Shown here piece by piece: positions 16,509-25,706 of a DNA stretch of 64,000 nucleotides (positions are counted from its first letter, which is position 1; the number at the start of each line of letters is the position of its first letter). The position numbers and the translations under genes are program-made. Source of the DNA: an uncultured bacterium (GTDB taxonomy: Bacteria; Dictyoglomota; Dictyoglomia; Dictyoglomales; Dictyoglomaceae); contig CALHLF010000011.1 in NCBI GenBank assembly GCA_938034905.1, forward strand, positions 1-64,000. Direction: 5' to 3'. The notes beneath the pieces were generated by a model. That model had not been told where the DNA came from and searched no databases. It was given only the letters and a program-made list of their open reading frames with translations.

Positions 16509-16811
16509 TTAATTGTGCCTTAAAACTCGGCACTTGGTATGGACATAGGTACCACCCTTAAGAAATAAAGATAAGTTCTTAGTGACTAAGCCATAATAGG
16601 TAAGGAGATCCTCCATAAGTATAACAGGAAAATCATTCTAAGGCTTGGTTTTGGTAAAATTCCATGTATCTTGCCATCTTTGTGCTTTCTCTAAAAAAAC
16701 CTCTTTTCTTTCTATCTTTTTATTCTTATCTTTTTCTATTTCTCTATAAAATCTATCTTCTTTATTATACTGGTACCTATCTACTTTTGCCTTTAAACTC
16801 AAAATTGACAT
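16509..16811 (-). pseudogene. Degenerate C-terminal fragment of an integrase-core transposase
   Basis: Read on the minus strand, an ATG at 16811 opens a 57-codon frame rich in Lys/Glu that ends at TAG (16640-16638). The same frame continues for 42 more sense codons to TAA (16511-16509). Before the stop it reads VDRYQYN...RFYREIE...AQRWQDTWNFTKTKP; after it, MEDLLTYYGLVTKN. This resembles the 'RW..TWNF.RPH.G.GM...TPYEKL' tail of rve/IS481-like transposases with substitutions and an internal stop. No catalytic DDE region, terminal repeats or target duplication was found. The family call is recognition by eye. A live 57-residue protein is possible but less likely. Confidence 0.5.
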
Positions 16812-16833
16812 AGCAAATTTTTCTTCTTATACT
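16805..16833 (+). promoter_or_regulatory. Promoter of the purine operon
   Basis: TTGACA (16805-16810), exactly 17 bases, then TATACT (16828-16833). Transcription would begin near 16840, immediately before the guanine aptamer. The -35 overlaps the first codons of the minus-strand transposase remnant. Confidence 0.85.
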
Positions 16834-16841
16834 ATTACTGT

Positions 16842-16908
16842 CTCGTATAATCCCAAGGATAAGGCTTGGGAGTTTCTACCAGGCAACCGTAAATTGCCTG
16901 ACTACGAG
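16842..16908 (+). promoter_or_regulatory. Guanine (purine-class) riboswitch aptamer
   Basis: P1 is CTCGTA (16842-16847) with TACGAG (16903-16908). P2 is CCCAAG/CTTGGG capped by a GATAAGG loop. The junction GTTTCTACC is followed by P3 CAGGCAA/TTGCCTG with the loop CCGTAAA. These are the conserved core elements of the purine riboswitch. The specificity base in GACTA is C16902; C at this position (C74 in the xpt numbering) pairs with guanine or hypoxanthine, whereas adenine aptamers carry U. It sits at the 5' end of the purine operon leader, so it is expected to repress when guanine is abundant. Confidence 0.95.
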
Positions 16909-17016
16909 CGGAAGAGTCCCTTAGGGCTCTAAATAGAGTCCAAGCGGGACTGGCAAGACATAGAAAGTCTTGCTACACCGAAGGGATAAAAACCCAGGCG
17001 GGTAGGTTCCCTCGTA
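16903..17016 (+). promoter_or_regulatory. PRPP riboswitch aptamer (ykkC subtype 2b), in tandem with the guanine aptamer
   Basis: Conserved ykkC-class elements are visible: the stem AGTCCC (16915-16920)/GGGACT (16946-16951) enclosing GGGCTCT/AGAGTCC, then the stem GCAAGAC (16953-16959)/GTCTTGC (16967-16973). The core follows: ACACCGAAGGGATAAAA and CCCAGGCGGGTAGG. The ...CAGGCGGGTAGG ending is that of the PRPP subtype rather than the guanidine subtype. The closing helix is TACGAG, bulged C, GGAA (16903-16913) with TTCC-CTCGTA (17007-17016). The left strand of that helix is the same TACGAG used for P1 of the guanine aptamer. Tandem guanine-PRPP switches ahead of purine genes are a described arrangement. 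Confidence 0.85.
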
Positions 17017-17038
17017 TGATCCTACCTTCCTGGGTTTT
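16988..17038 (+). terminator. Regulated terminator shared by the two aptamers
   Basis: The long hairpin pairs AAAACCCAGG with CCTGGGTTTT (17029-17038) outside, and GGTAGG (17001-17006) with CCTACC (17021-17026) inside, followed by an A/T-rich stretch. Both left strands are core elements of the PRPP aptamer, so PRPP binding should exclude the terminator. The T tract is short, so termination strength is uncertain. Confidence 0.75.
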
Positions 17039-17059
17039 AAAATTTATAAGGAGTGAAAA

Positions 17060-18352
17060 ATGTTAGATAGATATTGTAGAAGAGAATTAAAAGAAATTTG
17101 GTCTGATGAAAATAGATATAATTTGTGGTTAAAAGTAGAATTAGCATTTTTGAAAGCTAGATCCTTTTATGGTGAGATTCCACTGGAGATTGTAGATGAG
17201 ATAGAAAAAAAAGCGAAATTTTCTATAGAAGAAATAAGAAGAATAGAAAAAGAAACGAATCATGAGATGATAGCTTTTTTGAGTAATGTATCTCAAAATA
17301 TAGGAAAAGGTTCTGAATATATTCATCAAGGATTAACCTCTTCTGATGTTATGGATACTGCTTTTTCTTTACAGATTCTTTCAGCCTTGAATTATATTGA
17401 ACAGGATCTTTTAATGCTCTTAGAAGTCCTAAGAGAAAAAGCATTGGAATATAAGTATCTTCCTATGATGGGAAGAACTCATGGTATGCACGCAGAACCT
17501 ATAACCTTAGGATTTAAATTTTTAGGTTGGTGGTCTGAACTAAGAAGGGATCTGGAAAGGCTTCAGAGGGCAAAGGAGAATATAAAATTTGGAAAATTTT
17601 CAGGAGTTGTGGGAACCTTAGCTCATATAGATCCAAAAGTAGAGGAGAAAGCCTGTGAAATATTAGGCCTTAATCCAGAACCTGTGGCAACTCAAATTAT
17701 TCCACGAGATAGACATGCAGAAGTTATGTATAGCTTATCTATAATTGCCACCTCCTTAGAGAGGATTGCTCAAGAAATAAGAGATTTACAAAGAACAGAA
17801 GTTGGAGAATTAGAAGAACCCTTCAGAGAAAAACAGAAAGGCTCTTCTGCTATGCCTCATAAGAGAAATCCAATTTTATCAGAAAGAATATGTGGTTTGG
17901 CAAGAGTAATAAGAAGTTATTTAATAACAGCATTGGAAAATATTCCCCTTTGGCATGAAAGAGATATCAGCCATTCTTCTGCAGAAAGGATTATTTTCCC
18001 AGATGCTACTTCTCTATTAGATTATCTACTAAATCTTTTAGCAGATATTATAAAAAATCTAAAGATTAATAAGGAGAAGATTTTAAAGAATTTAGAGATA
18101 AATCAAGGTGTATTTTATTCTCAAAATCTTCTTATTGCATTAACTGAGAAAGGAGTTTTAAGAGATATTGCATATTCTTGGATTCAAGAAGATTCATTTA
18201 AATCTATAAATGAGAATATATCTTTTAAAGAAGTGATATTGAAAGATGAAAGAATTAAAGAGAAATTATCTCAAGAGGAAATTGAGGGGTGTTTTTCTCT
18301 AGAGTTTTTCTTAAAGAATATAGATAAGATCTACGAAAGAGTAGGAATATAG
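17060..18352 (+). CDS. purB: Adenylosuccinate lyase
   Basis: Cleaves SAICAR to AICAR and adenylosuccinate to AMP, releasing fumarate each time. The 430-residue protein has the superfamily signature GSSAMPHKRNPI near 262-273. The catalytic-region motifs are QGLTSSDVMDTA (about 90-101) and GRTHGMHAEP (about 140-149). The Shine-Dalgarno aaggag sits 6 bases before the ATG. First gene of the purine operon, directly downstream of the tandem riboswitch. Confidence 0.95.
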   Translation: MLDRYCRRELKEIWSDENRYNLWLKVELAFLKARSFYGEIPLEIVDEIEKKAKFSIEEIRRIEKETNHEMIAFLSNVSQNIGKGSEYIHQGLTSSDVMDTAFSLQILSALNYIEQDLLMLLEVLREKALEYKYLPMMGRTHGMHAEPITLGFKFLGWWSELRRDLERLQRAKENIKFGKFSGVVGTLAHIDPKVEEKACEILGLNPEPVATQIIPRDRHAEVMYSLSIIATSLERIAQEIRDLQRTEVGELEEPFREKQKGSSAMPHKRNPILSERICGLARVIRSYLITALENIPLWHERDISHSSAERIIFPDATSLLDYLLNLLADIIKNLKINKEKILKNLEINQGVFYSQNLLIALTEKGVLRDIAYSWIQEDSFKSINENISFKEVILKDERIKEKLSQEEIEGCFSLEFFLKNIDKIYERVGI

Positions 18353-18372
18353 AAGATGGGAGGAAATTATCA

Positions 18373-18633
18373 GTGAGTAAATGGTGGGTTAAGTTAGAGA
18401 TATTCTTGAAAGATGGAATTCTTGATCCCCAGGGAAAAGCTATTAATTCTGCTCTCCATTCTCTAGGATTTGAAGAAGTAGAAGAAGTTCGTATGGGGAA
18501 AATTTTGAGATTAAAAATTGAAGGGGAAACAGAAGAAGATATTAGAGATAAAGTGAGAAAAATGAGTGAAATATTTTTAGCAAATCCTGTCACTGAAAAT
18601 TTTGAAATAAGGGTAGAGAAAATATGCGAATAG
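18373..18633 (+). CDS. purS: Phosphoribosylformylglycinamidine synthase subunit PurS
   Basis: The small structural subunit of the three-part FGAM synthase, 86 residues, bridging PurL and PurQ. The sequence shows the typical [18 protein letters not shown] segment (about 16-33) and the C-terminal [11 protein letters not shown]. It starts at GTG (18373) after a gggagg site and overlaps purQ by 10 bases, so the two are probably translationally coupled. Confidence 0.93.
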
Positions 18634-19301
18634 GTATTGTTGTTTTTCCGGGAACAAATTGTGATTATGATACCTTTTGGGCATTGAAATTAGTAGGGTT
18701 AGATCCAGTTTTTCTGTGGCATAAAGATACTAATCTTATAAATGTTTCTGCAGTAATTCTTCCTGGTGGATTTTCCTACGGAGATTATCTTAGAGCAGGT
18801 GCTATTGCAAGATTTTCCCCTTTAATTGATAAGATCTTTGACTTTGCTGAAAAAGGTGGCTTAGTGTTGGGGATTTGTAATGGTTTTCAGATATTATTGG
18901 AGATGGGACTTCTTCCAGGAGCCATGCTTCCCAATAATACAAATACATTTATTTGTAAGCAGGTCTATTTAAAAGTGGAGAATAATGATACACCCTTTTT
19001 AAGAAAATATTCTATAGGGGAAATATTGAAGATGCCCATTGCTCATAAAGAAGGAAGATATTATGTTTCAGATTCAGAGCTTGTTAAATTAGAGAATAAA
19101 AAACAGGTGGTTTTAAGATATGTAGGGCCAAACGGAGAGATAGATTCAAAATTTAATCCCAATGGCTCGGTAAACAATATTGCAGGAGTAGTAAATGAGA
19201 AAAGAAATGTTATGGGATTAATGCCTCATCCCGAAAGAGCGGTAGAGAAGCTATTAGGAAGTGATTCGGGAATAAGATTATTCTTATCCTTTTTGAATTA
19301 G
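18624..19301 (+). CDS. purQ: Phosphoribosylformylglycinamidine synthase subunit PurQ (glutaminase)
   Basis: A class I glutamine amidotransferase that supplies ammonia to PurL. 225 residues. The nucleophile is C85 in GICNGFQIL. The His and Glu of the triad lie in LMPHPERA near the C-terminus. The N-terminal [10 protein letters not shown] is typical of PurQ. The small PurQ fits with separate PurS and small PurL subunits. Confidence 0.95.
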
Positions 19302-19312
19302 GGGGTATATAA

Positions 19313-21448
19313 ATGGGAATATATGGCTTAAAAGATGAAGAAATTAATCACGTAAGAAGATTGTTAGAAAGAGAACCTAATGACGTAGAATGGTCAGTAA
19401 TTTCAGTGATTTGGTCAGAACATTGTAGTTATAAGCATTCAAGAAAATATTTAAAAAATTTTTTGACAAAAGCTAAATGGGTAGAACAAGGACCAGGAGA
19501 AAATGCAGGGGTAATAGAATTAGGAAATGGATATAAATTGGTCTTTAAAGTAGAAAGTCATAATCATCCTTCTGCTGTTGAGCCCTTTCAAGGATCAGCA
19601 ACAGGAGTGGGAGGTATTGTCAGAGATATATTAGCCTTAGGAGCACGACCCATTGCATTATTAGATTCATTAAGATTTGGTCCTCAAGATAATTTAAAAA
19701 ATAGATATCTATTTAATGGAGTTGTATCTGGAATAAGTTTTTATGGTAACTGTATAGGAGTTCCTGTAGTTGGTGGAGAAATCATCTTTGAAGACTGTTA
19801 TAGTTCTAACCCATTAGTAAATGTAATGTGTGTAGGAATAGTTCCTCCTGGAGGAAAAATATATAAGGGTAGAGCAGAAGGAAAAGGGAACTTAATATTG
19901 TTAGTAGGAGCAAGAACAGGTAGAGATGGGATTCATGGAGCAAGTTTTGCTTCGGAAAAGTTGGAAGAAGATATCCATTCCCAAAGACCATCAGTCCAAG
20001 TGGGAGATCCCTTTATGGGAAAACTTCTTATTGAAGCATGTTTAGAAGCAGGATCCTTAGAAGGAGTTATTGGAATTCAAGATTTAGGGGCAGCAGGGCT
20101 TGTGAGTGCTTTATCAGAATCTGCAAGTAGAGGGGGTTCAGGAGTAGTAGTTTATTTAGATAAAGTTCCCCAAAGAGAAGAAAATATGACTTCTGAAGAG
20201 ATTTTAATCTCTGAATCTCAAGAAAGAATGATTCTCATAGTAGAACCAGAGAAGATAGATAGAATAAAAAATGTTTTTAAAAAATGGGATTTAGAAGCAG
20301 AAGTTATTGGAGAGGTTATAGATGAAGAAAAATTCATTGCCTATTTTAAGGGAGAGAAAGTTGTTGATTTACCTATAAAATTATTAACAAAAGACTCTTT
20401 AGAATTTGACCCTCCATTTAAAATTCGAGAAAGGATTCCAATGCCTATTCTTTCAAAGAATGAAGAGAAAATAGAAGGATTTATCAAAAAATTAATAGAG
20501 GATATAAAAATTAAAGAATATATTTATCAGCAATATGATTATTCAGTTCAAACTAACACTGTTCTTCCTCCAGGAAGAGGAGATTCTGCAGTTTTAAGGA
20601 TTAAAGATACAAAAATGGCTATAGCTCTCACTATTGATGGAAATGGAAGATATTGCTTTTTGGATCCTAAAATGGGAGCTATGAATGCAGTTTCTGAAGC
20701 ATGTAGAAATATCTTATGTGTTGGGGGAAGGCCTTTAGCAATAACTGATGGTCTTAACTTTGGAGATCCTGATGAACCTGAAGTCTTCTATCAATTTCGA
20801 GAGGTAGTCTCTGGAATTAATATTTCCTCAAGAGTTTTAGAGATTCCAGTAGTTAGTGGAAATGTAAGTTTTTATAACGGACAAGGCGATAATAGGATAT
20901 TTCCTACCCCAATTATTGGAATGGTGGGAATATTAGAAAACATAGATTATTTAATTACTCCTGATTTTAAGGAAGAAGAGAATTTAATCTATCTTTTAGG
21001 AGATTTAGATTGGTTATCTATAGAAGGAAGCGAGTATATTAAATATTCCTACAATATTATTGCAGGTAATCCTCCTTATGTAAATCTTCTCTGGGAAAAA
21101 AGGCTCAAAAGTTTTATGGAGGACATAAGAAAGGAGAAAATTATTTTGTCTGCCCATGATATAAGTGATGGTGGACTTTTGAATTCACTTTTGGAAATGA
21201 GTTTTTGGGGAGAAAAGGGAATAGATATTACTCTTCCAGAAGTAGAAGACTATGAAAGACTTCTTTTTGGAGAAGGCTCAGGTTTGATAATTGTTGAGAT
21301 TTCTGAGAAGAATAAAGAGTATTTTGTCAAAAAAGTTGAGGAATATAAATTGAAGGCCTTTTTATTAGGAAAAGTTGTAAGAGGGAATTTCAAGATTAAA
21401 CCTTATATTGATTATCCCCTTAAGAAAATAATAGAAAGAGGGGATTAA
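19313..21448 (+). CDS. purL: Phosphoribosylformylglycinamidine synthase subunit PurL (small form)
   Basis: The synthetase subunit converting FGAR to FGAM with ATP and ammonia. At 711 residues it is the small bacterial PurL that needs PurS and PurQ. Visible motifs: WSEHCSYKHSRKYLK near 36-50, ESHNHPSAVEPFQGSATGVG near 83-102, and GARPIALLDSLRFG. The second half repeats the fold (PGRGDSAVLRIK, VSGNVSFYNG). Starts at ATG 19313 after gggggta and is followed by purF after one base. Confidence 0.96.
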   Translation: MGIYGLKDEEINHVRRLLEREPNDVEWSVISVIWSEHCSYKHSRKYLKNFLTKAKWVEQGPGENAGVIELGNGYKLVFKVESHNHPSAVEPFQGSATGVGGIVRDILALGARPIALLDSLRFGPQDNLKNRYLFNGVVSGISFYGNCIGVPVVGGEIIFEDCYSSNPLVNVMCVGIVPPGGKIYKGRAEGKGNLILLVGARTGRDGIHGASFASEKLEEDIHSQRPSVQVGDPFMGKLLIEACLEAGSLEGVIGIQDLGAAGLVSALSESASRGGSGVVVYLDKVPQREENMTSEEILISESQERMILIVEPEKIDRIKNVFKKWDLEAEVIGEVIDEEKFIAYFKGEKVVDLPIKLLTKDSLEFDPPFKIRERIPMPILSKNEEKIEGFIKKLIEDIKIKEYIYQQYDYSVQTNTVLPPGRGDSAVLRIKDTKMAIALTIDGNGRYCFLDPKMGAMNAVSEACRNILCVGGRPLAITDGLNFGDPDEPEVFYQFREVVSGINISSRVLEIPVVSGNVSFYNGQGDNRIFPTPIIGMVGILENIDYLITPDFKEEENLIYLLGDLDWLSIEGSEYIKYSYNIIAGNPPYVNLLWEKRLKSFMEDIRKEKIILSAHDISDGGLLNSLLEMSFWGEKGIDITLPEVEDYERLLFGEGSGLIIVEISEKNKEYFVKKVEEYKLKAFLLGKVVRGNFKIKPYIDYPLKKIIERGD

Positions 21449-21449
21449 A

Positions 21450-22844
21450 ATGAAGGATAAATTAAAAGAAGAATGTGGAATCGTAGGGGTTATAAACTCA
21501 ACAAAAAATAATTATGCAAGTTTTTTAGTATATCAAGGACTATTCAATTTACAGCATAGGGGGCAGGAAGGTGCTGGAATTGTGAGTTTTAAAGGATCAG
21601 AAATCGTTTATCATAAAGATTTTGGTCTGGTAAATAATATATTTAATATGGAAATTTTAAAGAAATTAAAAGGAAGAATTGCACTGGGACATGTTAGATA
21701 TTCTACATCTGGCAAAGAAAATCCTAACAATATTCAACCCTTAATTGTAAATCTTCCTAAATTTGGGTTTTTAGCTTTAGCCCATAATGGACATATATCT
21801 AATGCTAATTCTCTAAGAAGAAAACTTGAAAATGAGGGAGCTATCTTCCAAAGTACTTCAGATAGTGAAATATTTCTTCATCTCATTGCCCGTTCCCCTA
21901 AGGATACCTTAGAGGAAAGACTTGAAGATGCCTTAGATAGAATAAATGGGAGCTATTCTTTAATAATTGGAAATAGTAAAGGGCTTTGGGCAATAAGAGA
22001 TCCTCATGGTTTTAGGCCTCTCTTCATGGCAAAAATTAAAGATGGAACAATAATGTTTGCTTCAGAAACCTGTGCTTTTAAGCATCTTCAGGTAATAGAA
22101 ATTAGGGAACTGGATAGAGGAGAATTATTATTTGTTGATTTGGAAGGAAATATAAGAGAAAAGGTTTATAAAAAAGAAAAATCGAGGTTTTGTCTCTTTG
22201 AATTTATTTATTTTTCAAGACCTGATAGTCTATACAATAACAAGACAGTTTATAATTATAGAAAGGATATGGGAAGAATTTTAGCAAAGGAATCCTATGT
22301 TTCTGCTGATTTAATTGTTCCTGTTCCAGATTCGGGAATACCTGCAGCTATTGGATTTAGCGAATATAGCGGAATCCCTTTAGAAATGGCATTGATAAGA
22401 AGTCATTATATAGGAAGAACCTTTATTCAACCTCACCAAAAGGAAAGAGAAGGAGCAGTAAGAATGAAACTTCTTTTAATAGGAGATTTAATCAAAAATA
22501 AAAGAGTGATAATAGTTGATGATTCGTTAGTTAGAGGTACCACTGCAAAAAGGTTAGCAGAAATGTTTAGAAAAGAGGGAGCTTTAGAGGTTCATCTTAG
22601 ATTGTCTTCTCCCCCATTGATCGCTCCTTGTCATTATGGTGTAGATATACCAAACTCAAAGGAGTTAGTAAGCTATCACTATACTCCAGAAGAAATAGCA
22701 AAACTCTTAGGATTTGATTCTGTAGCTTTTTTAAGTCTTGGAGGATTGGTGAGTATCTTACCAGATAAGGGTTATTGTGGAGAGTGTTTTGGAAAACAAG
22801 TGGTGGAGAGAGAAATATGCATAAAAGAATTACGTATAGTTTAG
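21450..22844 (+). CDS. purF: Amidophosphoribosyltransferase
   Basis: The first committed enzyme of purine synthesis: PRPP plus glutamine to phosphoribosylamine. The 464-residue precursor has an 8-residue propeptide before the catalytic Cys9 (KEECGIVGV), so it should self-process. The PRPP-binding loop is IIVDDSLVRGTTAKR. Cysteines in RFCLFEF, APCHYG and GYCGECFG match the [4Fe-4S] pattern of the Bacillus-type enzyme, suggesting oxygen-sensitive stability. Its substrate is the ligand of the upstream PRPP aptamer. Its end overlaps the start of purM. Confidence 0.96.
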   Translation: MKDKLKEECGIVGVINSTKNNYASFLVYQGLFNLQHRGQEGAGIVSFKGSEIVYHKDFGLVNNIFNMEILKKLKGRIALGHVRYSTSGKENPNNIQPLIVNLPKFGFLALAHNGHISNANSLRRKLENEGAIFQSTSDSEIFLHLIARSPKDTLEERLEDALDRINGSYSLIIGNSKGLWAIRDPHGFRPLFMAKIKDGTIMFASETCAFKHLQVIEIRELDRGELLFVDLEGNIREKVYKKEKSRFCLFEFIYFSRPDSLYNNKTVYNYRKDMGRILAKESYVSADLIVPVPDSGIPAAIGFSEYSGIPLEMALIRSHYIGRTFIQPHQKEREGAVRMKLLLIGDLIKNKRVIIVDDSLVRGTTAKRLAEMFRKEGALEVHLRLSSPPLIAPCHYGVDIPNSKELVSYHYTPEEIAKLLGFDSVAFLSLGGLVSILPDKGYCGECFGKQVVEREICIKELRIV

Positions 22845-23845
22845 CAGGAGTACACATAAGTAAGGTAGACAAGAGTCTTTCTCTTTTGAGACCCTATTTC
22901 GAATCTACTTATACATCTAATATTATTCCCTTTTGGAACGGCTTTTCGTCAATTTTGAAAATTGATTGGAAAAGTTATGAAAATCCTCTTATTCTTTTAA
23001 CCACAGATGGGGTTGGAACAAAGCTAAAAATTGCCCTTCAAAGGAAAAAATATGAGATTATAGGACAAGATTTAGTCGCTATGAATACAAATGATCTTTT
23101 AACTTGTGGGGCAAAACCTCTTGCTTTTTTAGATTATTTTGCTACTGGAAAGTTTGATGAGGAAATTTACCAAAATATTTTAATAAGTATTTCAAAGGCA
23201 TGTAAATTAGTAGAATGTAGCTTTGTGGGAGGAGAAACTGCAGAATTGCCTGGTATATATAAAGGAAAAGATATAGATCTTGCTGGATTTGCCTTGGGAG
23301 TTGTGGAAGAGAAGCACTTACTACCTAAATTAGCTGATATAAATGAAGATTGTGAGTTAATTGGAATATCATCTTCTGGATTACACAGTAATGGATATTC
23401 CCTTTTAAGATATATTATGAAAAAGAAAAGAATATCATGGAGAACTAAAATAGAAGAAAATACATTAGAGGAAGAAGTTTTAAAACCAACAAAACTTTAT
23501 TCCCCACTTATTCTTTCCCTTTTAGAAGAATTTAGAGATTCTATCAAAGGTATAGCTCATATTACTGGAGGAGGAATTCCAGGAAATCTTCCAAGAATTC
23601 TTCCTGAAGGATATGGTGCTTTAATTGATGTTTCCTCCTGGGAAATTCCTCCAATTTTTTCATGGATTATTAATAAAGGCAATTTATCTAAAAAGGAAGC
23701 TTTTAAGGTTTTTAACATGGGAATTGGCCTTATATTGGTTGTAAAAAGCAAAGGAAAGGAAATCATAAGATATTTAAAAAATAAAGGGGAAGACGCATTT
23801 TTAATAGGAAAAGTTGAGAGGGGGAAAGGGGTTAAGATTATTTGA
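22817..23845 (+). CDS. purM: Phosphoribosylaminoimidazole synthetase (AIR synthase)
   Basis: ATP-dependent ring closure of FGAM to AIR. About 342 residues from the chosen ATG at 22817, which places YSLAGVHISKVD at the usual N-terminal position. An upstream in-frame ATG at 22775 would add 14 residues copied from the purF frame and is unlikely. Motifs: TDGVGTKLKIA, VGGETAELPG, and HITGGGIPGNLPR near the C-terminal part. Overlaps purF by 28 bases and purN by 4. Confidence 0.93.
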   Translation: MHKRITYSLAGVHISKVDKSLSLLRPYFESTYTSNIIPFWNGFSSILKIDWKSYENPLILLTTDGVGTKLKIALQRKKYEIIGQDLVAMNTNDLLTCGAKPLAFLDYFATGKFDEEIYQNILISISKACKLVECSFVGGETAELPGIYKGKDIDLAGFALGVVEEKHLLPKLADINEDCELIGISSSGLHSNGYSLLRYIMKKKRISWRTKIEENTLEEEVLKPTKLYSPLILSLLEEFRDSIKGIAHITGGGIPGNLPRILPEGYGALIDVSSWEIPPIFSWIINKGNLSKKEAFKVFNMGIGLILVVKSKGKEIIRYLKNKGEDAFLIGKVERGKGVKII

Positions 23846-24471
23846 AAAAAAGATTAGGAGTTCTTGTTTCAGGAAGAGGAACAAATCTTCAGGCTCTAAT
23901 AAATGCAGGAAAAAAGAAGGATTACCCTGCGGAAGTAGTAGTAGTTATTAGTGATAATCCAAATGCTTATGCTATAACTCGTGCTCAAAAAGCTAATATT
24001 CCTGTTTATGTTATTCAAAGGGAAGATTATAAAACTAAAAAGGAATATGAGGAAAAAATTAAAGAAGTTCTTATGTCATATAAAGTAGATCTTGTTGTTC
24101 TTGCAGGATATATGAGGATTGTAGGTAAAACACTTCTTTCAGCTTTTCCTATGAAAATAATTAACATTCATCCTTCTCTCCTTCCTTCTTTTCCTGGACT
24201 TAATGCTCAAAAACAGGCATGGGAGCATGGAGTAAAATTTTCAGGATGTACTGTACATTTTGTAGATGAAGGGGTAGATACAGGACCGATAATTGGACAA
24301 AAAGTTGTTCCTGTATATGATCACGATACTCCTGAGTCCTTAGCAGAAAAAATATTGAAAAAAGAACATAAACTTTTAGTGGAGGTTGTAAAAAAATTAT
24401 TTACTGAGAATTATAGATTAGAAGGAAGAAGGGTGATTTTTCTCAAAGATAAGGAGGATGAGAGAAGATGA
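23842..24471 (+). CDS. purN: Phosphoribosylglycinamide formyltransferase (folate-dependent)
   Basis: Transfers formyl from 10-formyl-THF to GAR. 209 residues. Seen: VSGRGTNLQALI at the N-terminus; the catalytic Asn and His in NIHPSLLPSFPG; HFVDEGVDTGPIIGQ with the catalytic Asp. It starts with TTG at 23842, overlapping the purM stop, which indicates coupled translation. Overlaps purD by 4 bases. Confidence 0.94.
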   Translation: MKKRLGVLVSGRGTNLQALINAGKKKDYPAEVVVVISDNPNAYAITRAQKANIPVYVIQREDYKTKKEYEEKIKEVLMSYKVDLVVLAGYMRIVGKTLLSAFPMKIINIHPSLLPSFPGLNAQKQAWEHGVKFSGCTVHFVDEGVDTGPIIGQKVVPVYDHDTPESLAEKILKKEHKLLVEVVKKLFTENYRLEGRRVIFLKDKEDERR

Positions 24472-25706
24472 GAGTTCTTGTAATAGGTAATGGTGCAAGG
24501 GAACATGCCATAGTATGGAAATTGAGCCAAGATAAGAATATTAGTGAGATTTTTGCTATTCCCGGAAATGCAGGTATTGCTCAAATTGCAAAATGTATCG
24601 AAGAAAAAATGGATAATATTCAAGGAATTATAGATATTGCCAAGGAGTATAAGATTGACTGGACTATAGTAGGGCCAGAACTTCCTCTTTCTCTTGGTAT
24701 AGTTGATATTTTTGAGAAAGAGGGATTAAAAATTTGGGGACCAAATAAAGAAGGGGCTAAATTAGAGTATAGTAAAGCCTTTGCTAAGGAGATAATGAAG
24801 ACCTCAAAAATTCCAACTGCTGAATTCAAAATATTTGATTCTTTTTCTTCAGCTGTAGAATTTGTTAAAAAAACATCTTATCCTTTAGTAATTAAAGCAG
24901 ATGGACTTTGTGGAGGAAAGGGAGTAAAAATTGCTGAATCCTACGAATCTGCTGTTCAAATTTTACACGAATATATGATTAATAAAATTTTTGGTCCTTC
25001 AGGAGAAAAGGTGGTCATTGAGGAATATCTTGAAGGAAAGGAATTTTCACTTATTGCAATAATTAAAAATGGAGATTTTTACTTTTTGCCATCAGCACAG
25101 GATTACAAAAGGGTAGGGGAGGGAAATACAGGAGAAAATACAGGAGGAATGGGATCTTTTTCCCCTGTTCCTTGGATTAATGAGGAAATATTAAAAAAAT
25201 GTGAAAAAAATATATTTCGGCCATTATTAGATGAACTAACTAAAAGAAATATAAACTATCAAGGTTTTTTATATGGTGGTTTAATCTTAGTAAGGAATGA
25301 GCCATACGTATTAGAATTTAATGTCCGTTTAGGAGATCCAGAAGCACAAGTAATTTTACCCCTTTTGAATTTTAATTTTACTGATATCCTTTATAGAACT
25401 AATTTTCCTTGGCTTTCAGATAAAAAGGCATTATGTGTAGTATTAGCATCTAAAGGCTATCCTGGGAACTATGAGACAGGAAAAGAAATAATATTTAAGA
25501 ATATAAATTTTCAAAATTTATATATATTTCATGCTGGAACCGTTAAAAGAAATGGGAAAATTCTAACCTCAGGAGGAAGAGTTCTTTCTGTTACTTCATG
25601 GGGAGAGAATTTTAAAGAAATTAGGGAAAGAGTATATAATGCTATTGATGAAATATATTTTGAAAATAAATATTATAGAAAGGATATAGGAATAGAACTT
25701 ATTTAG
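24468..25706 (+). CDS. purD: Phosphoribosylamine--glycine ligase (GAR synthetase)
   Basis: An ATP-grasp enzyme joining phosphoribosylamine and glycine. 412 residues. Motifs: VIGNGAREHAIVWKL at the N-terminus, KADGLCGGKGVKIAES (about 143-158), ENTGGMGSFSPVP, and the metal-binding EFNVRLGDPEAQVILPLL. Last gene of the operon; its end overlaps the convergent transporter gene by 8 bases. purC, purE and purH are absent from this operon and must lie elsewhere. Confidence 0.95.
   Translation: MRVLVIGNGAREHAIVWKLSQDKNISEIFAIPGNAGIAQIAKCIEEKMDNIQGIIDIAKEYKIDWTIVGPELPLSLGIVDIFEKEGLKIWGPNKEGAKLEYSKAFAKEIMKTSKIPTAEFKIFDSFSSAVEFVKKTSYPLVIKADGLCGGKGVKIAESYESAVQILHEYMINKIFGPSGEKVVIEEYLEGKEFSLIAIIKNGDFYFLPSAQDYKRVGEGNTGENTGGMGSFSPVPWINEEILKKCEKNIFRPLLDELTKRNINYQGFLYGGLILVRNEPYVLEFNVRLGDPEAQVILPLLNFNFTDILYRTNFPWLSDKKALCVVLASKGYPGNYETGKEIIFKNINFQNLYIFHAGTVKRNGKILTSGGRVLSVTSWGENFKEIRERVYNAIDEIYFENKYYRKDIGIELI

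Follow-up and report, generated by a model that had tools for sequence, protein, structure and literature searches.

In the 64000-nucleotide stretch of Dictyoglomota DNA that we analyzed (hereafter the window), a purine operon is preceded by a leader containing two aptamers, and the question raised by this locus is which ligands the leader senses and how it combines their signals. The operon, purB-S-Q-L-F-M-N-D, runs from 17060 to 25706 on a single strand with short gaps or overlaps between its genes. It opens with purB, encoding adenylosuccinate lyase (17060 to 18352, TIGR00928, 513.7 bits), and continues with purS at 18373, purQ at 18624, purL at 19313, purF at 21450-22844, purM at about 22817, purN at 23842 and purD at 24468-25706, all on the plus strand and all assigned by equivalog-level NCBIfam models above their curated cut-offs. 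AICAR transformylase/IMP cyclohydrolase (PF01808, C57) and SAICAR synthetase (PF01259, C30) are encoded elsewhere in the genome. Because the pathway ends at IMP, the operon serves adenine and guanine nucleotides alike; the first-pass annotation of this DNA, which had the operon making precursors of guanine nucleotides, was thus right about the purine pathway but passed over the adenine nucleotides that IMP also feeds. The same annotation had the leader controlling purF, which does lie within the operon according to its NCBIfam assignment but is its fifth gene, purB being the first. We consider it very likely that a guanine-PRPP tandem riboswitch controls this operon through transcription termination, PRPP being the sugar from which purine synthesis sets out.

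Identity of the two aptamers

The leader (16840-17059, plus strand) lies upstream of purB and begins directly after a sigma-70-type promoter, TTGACA-17-TATACT (16805 to 16833, plus strand), which would start the transcript just 5' of the first aptamer. This promoter agrees with consensus at 11 of 12 positions, a weak match on its own given that shuffled sequences yield 1.0 such site on average, and identical hexamers with identical spacing stand 5' of the aptamer in a related genome (G002). The first 70 nucleotides of the leader are a guanine aptamer (16842 to 16908, plus strand) with P1 at 16842-16847/16903-16908, P2 at 16852-16857/16865-16870 and P3 at 16880-16886/16894-16900. The Rfam purine model RF00167 matches it at 16823-16924 with 88.3 bits (gathering score 37), and a search of the genome with this model found no other purine riboswitch. 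Purine aptamers carry C at position 74 when they are of the guanine type and U when they are of the adenine type. The ligand-pairing position 74 is here C16902, within GAC(16902)UAC, and we take this residue, C74 in xpt numbering, to be the one that specifies guanine.

The second aptamer (16910 to 17010, plus strand) has the ykkC scaffold, with P0 at 16910-16913/17007-17010, P1 at 16915-16920/16946-16951, P2 at 16953-16959/16967-16973 and P3 at 16983-16985/16993-16995. Scanned with Rfam 15, the leader gave no match to a family specific to PRPP aptamers, and the Guanidine-I model RF00442 scores this aptamer at 40.8 bits, under its gathering score of 63. Such a score is normal for the PRPP subtype, since merely 2 of 12 PRPP aptamers in the Bacillota tandem loci that we scanned pass the RF00442 cut-off. 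Automatic annotation is therefore likely to overlook PRPP aptamers, as Rfam 15 gave no family for them and the Guanidine-I cut-off misses most.

We built a covariance model, R1, from 13 aligned Bacillota PRPP aptamers, with no Dictyoglomota sequence included. Its training sequences came from an exact tandem-pattern scan of GTDB species genomes, which is too strict to serve as a survey and returned 13 stretches, all from Bacillota/Firmicutes, two of them PRPP singlets. In the resulting alignment 95.8% of cells pair and 12 pairs are changed on both sides; no shuffle reached its covariation score, and slid versions fell to 50% or less. The search pattern demanded the 3' core with G96, and we designed it knowing the window sequence, so that conservation of these columns in R1 arises partly by construction, whereas the covariation in P1, P2 and P0 does not. 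R1 matches the window at 16907-17013 with 75.9 bits (E 2e-16), 35 bits ahead of RF00442, and three Dictyoglomota relatives score 74.6-76.3 bits. For comparison, R1 gives 39.6 bits to the guanidine-I element of genome G058, which RF00442 scores at 84.2 bits, and 62.8 bits to a ppGpp-type element (L030). The latter, at G082 C1 368034-368151, is of the ykkC kind, has A at position 96 and lies 5' of a glutamate synthase-like gene, as would be expected for a ppGpp riboswitch.

The crystal structure of the Thermoanaerobacter mathranii PRPP aptamer (6CK5, PMC6031431) names A5, G6, G48, C49, C75, C77, G96, A/G101, A103, G104 and G105. We fixed the residue numbering at both ends by the primer sequences of that study and placed G96 via its G96A primer. 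All of the residues that can be mapped are kept in the window, namely A5 (16913), G6 (16914), G48 (16944), C49 (16945), C75 (16976), C77 (16978), G96 (16997), G101 (17002), A103 (17004), G104 (17005) and G105 (17006), those other than position 101 being the same in T. mathranii, and the P0 helix (GGAA/UUCC) is present alongside the contact residues A5, G6, C77, G104 and G105. Relative to T. mathranii, Dictyoglomota have A at position 95 and C at position 98, and their four tandems share an additional nucleotide between P1 and the (U/C)AGGG motif (UAGGG in the T. mathranii comparison) and one bulged nucleotide in P0. Within ykkC RNAs, a pyrimidine at position 49 excludes guanidine-I aptamers, which have A there, and G96 excludes ppGpp aptamers (PMC6031431). 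With C at position 49 and G at position 96, the second aptamer is, by these published sequence criteria, of the PRPP type, subtype 2b. Its P1 differs on both strands between the two Dictyoglomota genera with pairing kept (AGUCCC/GGGACU versus CGCUCC/GGAGCG).

A shared terminator-like hairpin and a proposed toggle strand

The PRPP core is followed by an intrinsic-terminator-like hairpin (16989 to 17038, plus strand) of -29.5 kcal/mol (z -6.2), as good as which none of 200 shuffles folded; a short U-tract comes after it. The two aptamers lie too close together for a terminator to fit between them, and they share this single hairpin. It takes up the 3' strand of PRPP P3 together with the PRPP-contacting G104 and G105, so that the hairpin and the ligand-bound PRPP fold are mutually exclusive, and it is retained in four Dictyoglomota. 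The first-pass annotation had read this region as a complete guanine aptamer, a PRPP aptamer and a shared terminator that reuses the PRPP core; its coordinates and its guanine aptamer agree with RF00167, the tandem identity with RF00167, R1 and the residue map, the covariance search that it proposed scores the second aptamer as PRPP, and its terminator corresponds to the hairpin described here. An A-tract and a U-tract flank the hairpin, the latter being short and interrupted (UUUUAAAAUUU), which leaves the strength of termination uncertain; the tails in Dictyoglomus (CUUUUGUUUUU and CUUUCAUUUU) are more terminator-like. The hairpin was not picked up in a scan for consensus terminators, partly because that scan accepts no loops outside 3-8 nt. 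Matches to mir-1255 and MIR6288 on the terminator were set aside as chance matches to a long hairpin.

The two aptamers are further connected by a shared strand, UACGAG (16903 to 16908, plus strand), which can serve either as the 3' strand of guanine P1 or as the 5' strand of an extended PRPP P0. Its partner in the second arrangement is the complementary toggle strand CUCGUA (17011 to 17016, plus strand), which sits in the terminator loop just 3' of the PRPP core. Six contiguous pairs are possible with 16842-16847 or with 17011-17016; the latter pairing extends P0 to 10 pairs with one bulge, compared with the 6 pairs of guanine P1. Exclusive pairing of guanine P1 and PRPP P0 is the model proposed for T. 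mathranii (Knappenberger et al. 2018, PMC6031431), whose tandem has the same alternative helices and the same 3' tail, CUCGUA, and the window's sequence fits this model, with all six bases of the shared strand taking part in the exclusive pairing. The matching duplex has a mean of -4.7 kcal/mol over 24 tandems, compared with -2.0 kcal/mol when the tails are shuffled (0 of 2000) and -4.0 kcal/mol when they are exchanged among species (12 of 5000), counts that are not strict probabilities given that the tandem sequences are related. The P1 stems of the two aptamers are 6 nt apart (16909-16914), inside the range of 5-7 nt in published tandems (PMC5912903).

Folding models that stop before the 3' terminator arm place the guanine P1 and extended P0 folds at -70.8 and -70.1 kcal/mol at 37 C and, by rough extrapolation, at -19.4 and -18.7 kcal/mol at 75 C, all energies here being nearest-neighbour estimates that leave out ligands and tertiary contacts. 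The two folds are 0.7 kcal/mol apart, so a ligand could decide between them. In the unconstrained model at 75 C, before the second terminator arm, the UACGAG:CUCGUA pairing is preferred. By contrast, in the full-length RNA without ligand the fold with guanine P1 and terminator leads by 16 kcal/mol (-89.6 versus -73.3 kcal/mol). Since equilibrium so strongly favours the terminator in the full RNA, the gate must act co-transcriptionally.

Probable gate logic and alternative readings

These pairings suggest how the leader would operate. Without PRPP, the strand 16989-17006 would be free and the terminator hairpin would form, an outcome that guanine would favour by locking 16903-16908 into guanine P1. 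PRPP binding would stabilise P3 and the extended P0, with 16903-16908 leaving guanine P1 to pair with 17011-17016; these changes would deprive the terminator of its 5' arm and undo the guanine aptamer, and RNA polymerase would read on. Ligand binding, termination and the precedence of PRPP over guanine are expected here by analogy with relatives, the closest being the B. megaterium codA tandem (PMC5912903), which has the same guanine-then-PRPP order and a single shared terminator overlapping PRPP P3 and likewise governs a purine-related gene; the window's host differs in being a thermophilic member of Dictyoglomota. In B. megaterium, guanine yields to PRPP both in vitro and in vivo, which makes the tandem an IMPLY gate (Sherlock 2018, PMC5912903), and with both ligands high the terminated product nears zero (PMC5912903). 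A 2022 review notes that the arrangement resembles NOT-A-AND-B but is IMPLY (PMC9481103). The first-pass annotation had guanine vetoing PRPP, the reverse of the logic measured in B. megaterium and a reading that the review warns against; judged by these relatives, it most likely has the gate the wrong way round.

The same two aptamers could nonetheless act with guanine dominant (NOT guanine AND PRPP) if a guanine-locked P1 blocked P0 despite PRPP. Guanine P1 is transcribed first and would be locked while the PRPP half is still to be made, and the IMPLY outcome has been proposed to hinge on how stable P0 is compared with P1 and could vary by lineage (PMC6031431). Set against this are the measured PRPP override in B. 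megaterium, both in vitro and in vivo (PMC5912903), and a toggle helix that spans the whole 3' strand of P1 as part of a P0 longer than P1, features favouring PRPP, and we regard guanine dominance as unlikely. It is distinctly improbable that translation or RNA stability, and not termination, is what the aptamers affect. The short, interrupted U-tract and the closeness of the hairpin to the ribosome-binding region would suit such a mode, but the purB Shine-Dalgarno sequence AAGGAG, read from the sequence at 17048 to 17053 (plus strand), lies outside both the hairpin and the modelled aptamer folds, a search by eye found no pairing between it and the freed terminator arm, an A-tract and a U-tract flank the hairpin, and the Dictyoglomus tails look more like those of a terminator.

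That the second aptamer belongs to another ykkC subtype, whether ppGpp, guanidine-I or a different subtype 2, seems very improbable to us. The scaffold is common to all of them and RF00442 does find the element; yet the sub-gathering score, the pyrimidine at position 49 and the P0 helix set it apart from the Guanidine-I riboswitch, over which the PRPP model has the 35-bit lead given above. The ppGpp riboswitch (ykkC 2a) resembles it in the pyrimidine at position 49 and in the extended conserved 5' and 3' ends but differs in lacking G at position 96 and in gene context, whereas a tandem with a guanine aptamer ahead of a purine operon is a PRPP context. A decayed, non-functional remnant is scarcely credible: a congeneric genome (G001) has no such leader, but in the window every mapped ligand-contact residue is kept, and PRPP P1 changes on both strands between genera while staying paired. 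We accordingly retain the reading of a guanine-PRPP tandem that acts on termination.

Distribution and origin in Dictyoglomota

The window's genome belongs to the sister genus of Dictyoglomus and has six relatives in its family; beyond these, none is closer than domain. The tandem lies 5' of purB in four of the seven Dictyoglomota genomes (G000, G002, G003 and G004), so it is not a chance occurrence, and both genera are represented. Besides aptamer identities, exclusive pairings and operon content, the analysis thus shows that the tandem is conserved at one site in both genera. Two genomes are uninformative, as purB is cut at a contig start in G006 and no full purB is present in the assembly of G005. 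In the remaining one, G001 (99% complete, of the window's genus), purB is present and its leader has no aptamers, which is most simply a loss. The purB leader region of G001 (L037) contains a palindrome, ATTATG-TTA-CATAAT (C1, around 372096-372108), perhaps the binding site of a protein repressor that took over from RNA control; its half-site pattern showed no genome-wide enrichment, with 2 sites compared to 6 for the reversed control.

All 257 PRPP riboswitches of Sherlock et al. 2018 were distributed in Firmicutes (PMC5912903), and the suspicion of the first-pass annotation that this organism lies outside the group in which tandems were first found proved correct. We found no literature report of a PRPP riboswitch in Dictyoglomus, although the supplementary alignments of the 2018 survey, of 257 PRPP and 127 tandem sequences, could list one. 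Over a spread of 386 genomes, R1 found one PRPP tandem outside Dictyoglomota, that of G058, whose phylum is presumably Bacillota, given that 225 of the 399 members of that phylum carry matches. The remaining R1 matches were one ppGpp-type element and weak guanidine-I-type elements, and no other PRPP aptamer was found outside Bacillota and Dictyoglomota in this spread, with the proviso that the stricter filters applied to sets of this size can miss weak matches. A second RF00442 match in the window's genome (C27, 15.5 bits) was dismissed as chance. In several Bacillota (L021 3235-5079, L022 3144-5981, L023 756-2565 and L017 2276-6647), two purine aptamers lie no more than a few kb apart, one belonging to a guanine-PRPP tandem, and it seems that some of the purine genes there are controlled by the tandem and others by the single aptamer.

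To place the operon, a quick PurL tree was made with members chosen as top matches by similarity, in which Dictyoglomota form one long, fully supported branch apart from the sampled Bacillota. Because this branch is separate, the tree lends no support to the operon having recently come from Bacillota that carry the tandem; an earlier acquisition of just the riboswitch, or its inheritance, may each be compatible with the tree. As a tentative proposal that we hold to be possible and rather less than probable, the Dictyoglomota gate would be an old and not a recent loan that predates the split of the two genera, has a complete six-base toggle, works near 75 C and constitutes the first documented PRPP riboswitch outside Firmicutes, with a logic that could differ from IMPLY.

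The tandem, its target pathway and the proposed mechanism have been published, and what the window holds is this known device, apparently intact, in a phylum new to the published main texts. The step by which the two aptamers exclude each other was called unresolved by both the 2018 discovery paper (PMC5912903) and the 2022 review (PMC9481103), and the Dictyoglomota leaders offer thermostable RNAs for the study of this mutual exclusion. With their presence ahead of purB, the sole RNA IMPLY gate found in nature would reach a second phylum, one of thermophiles.
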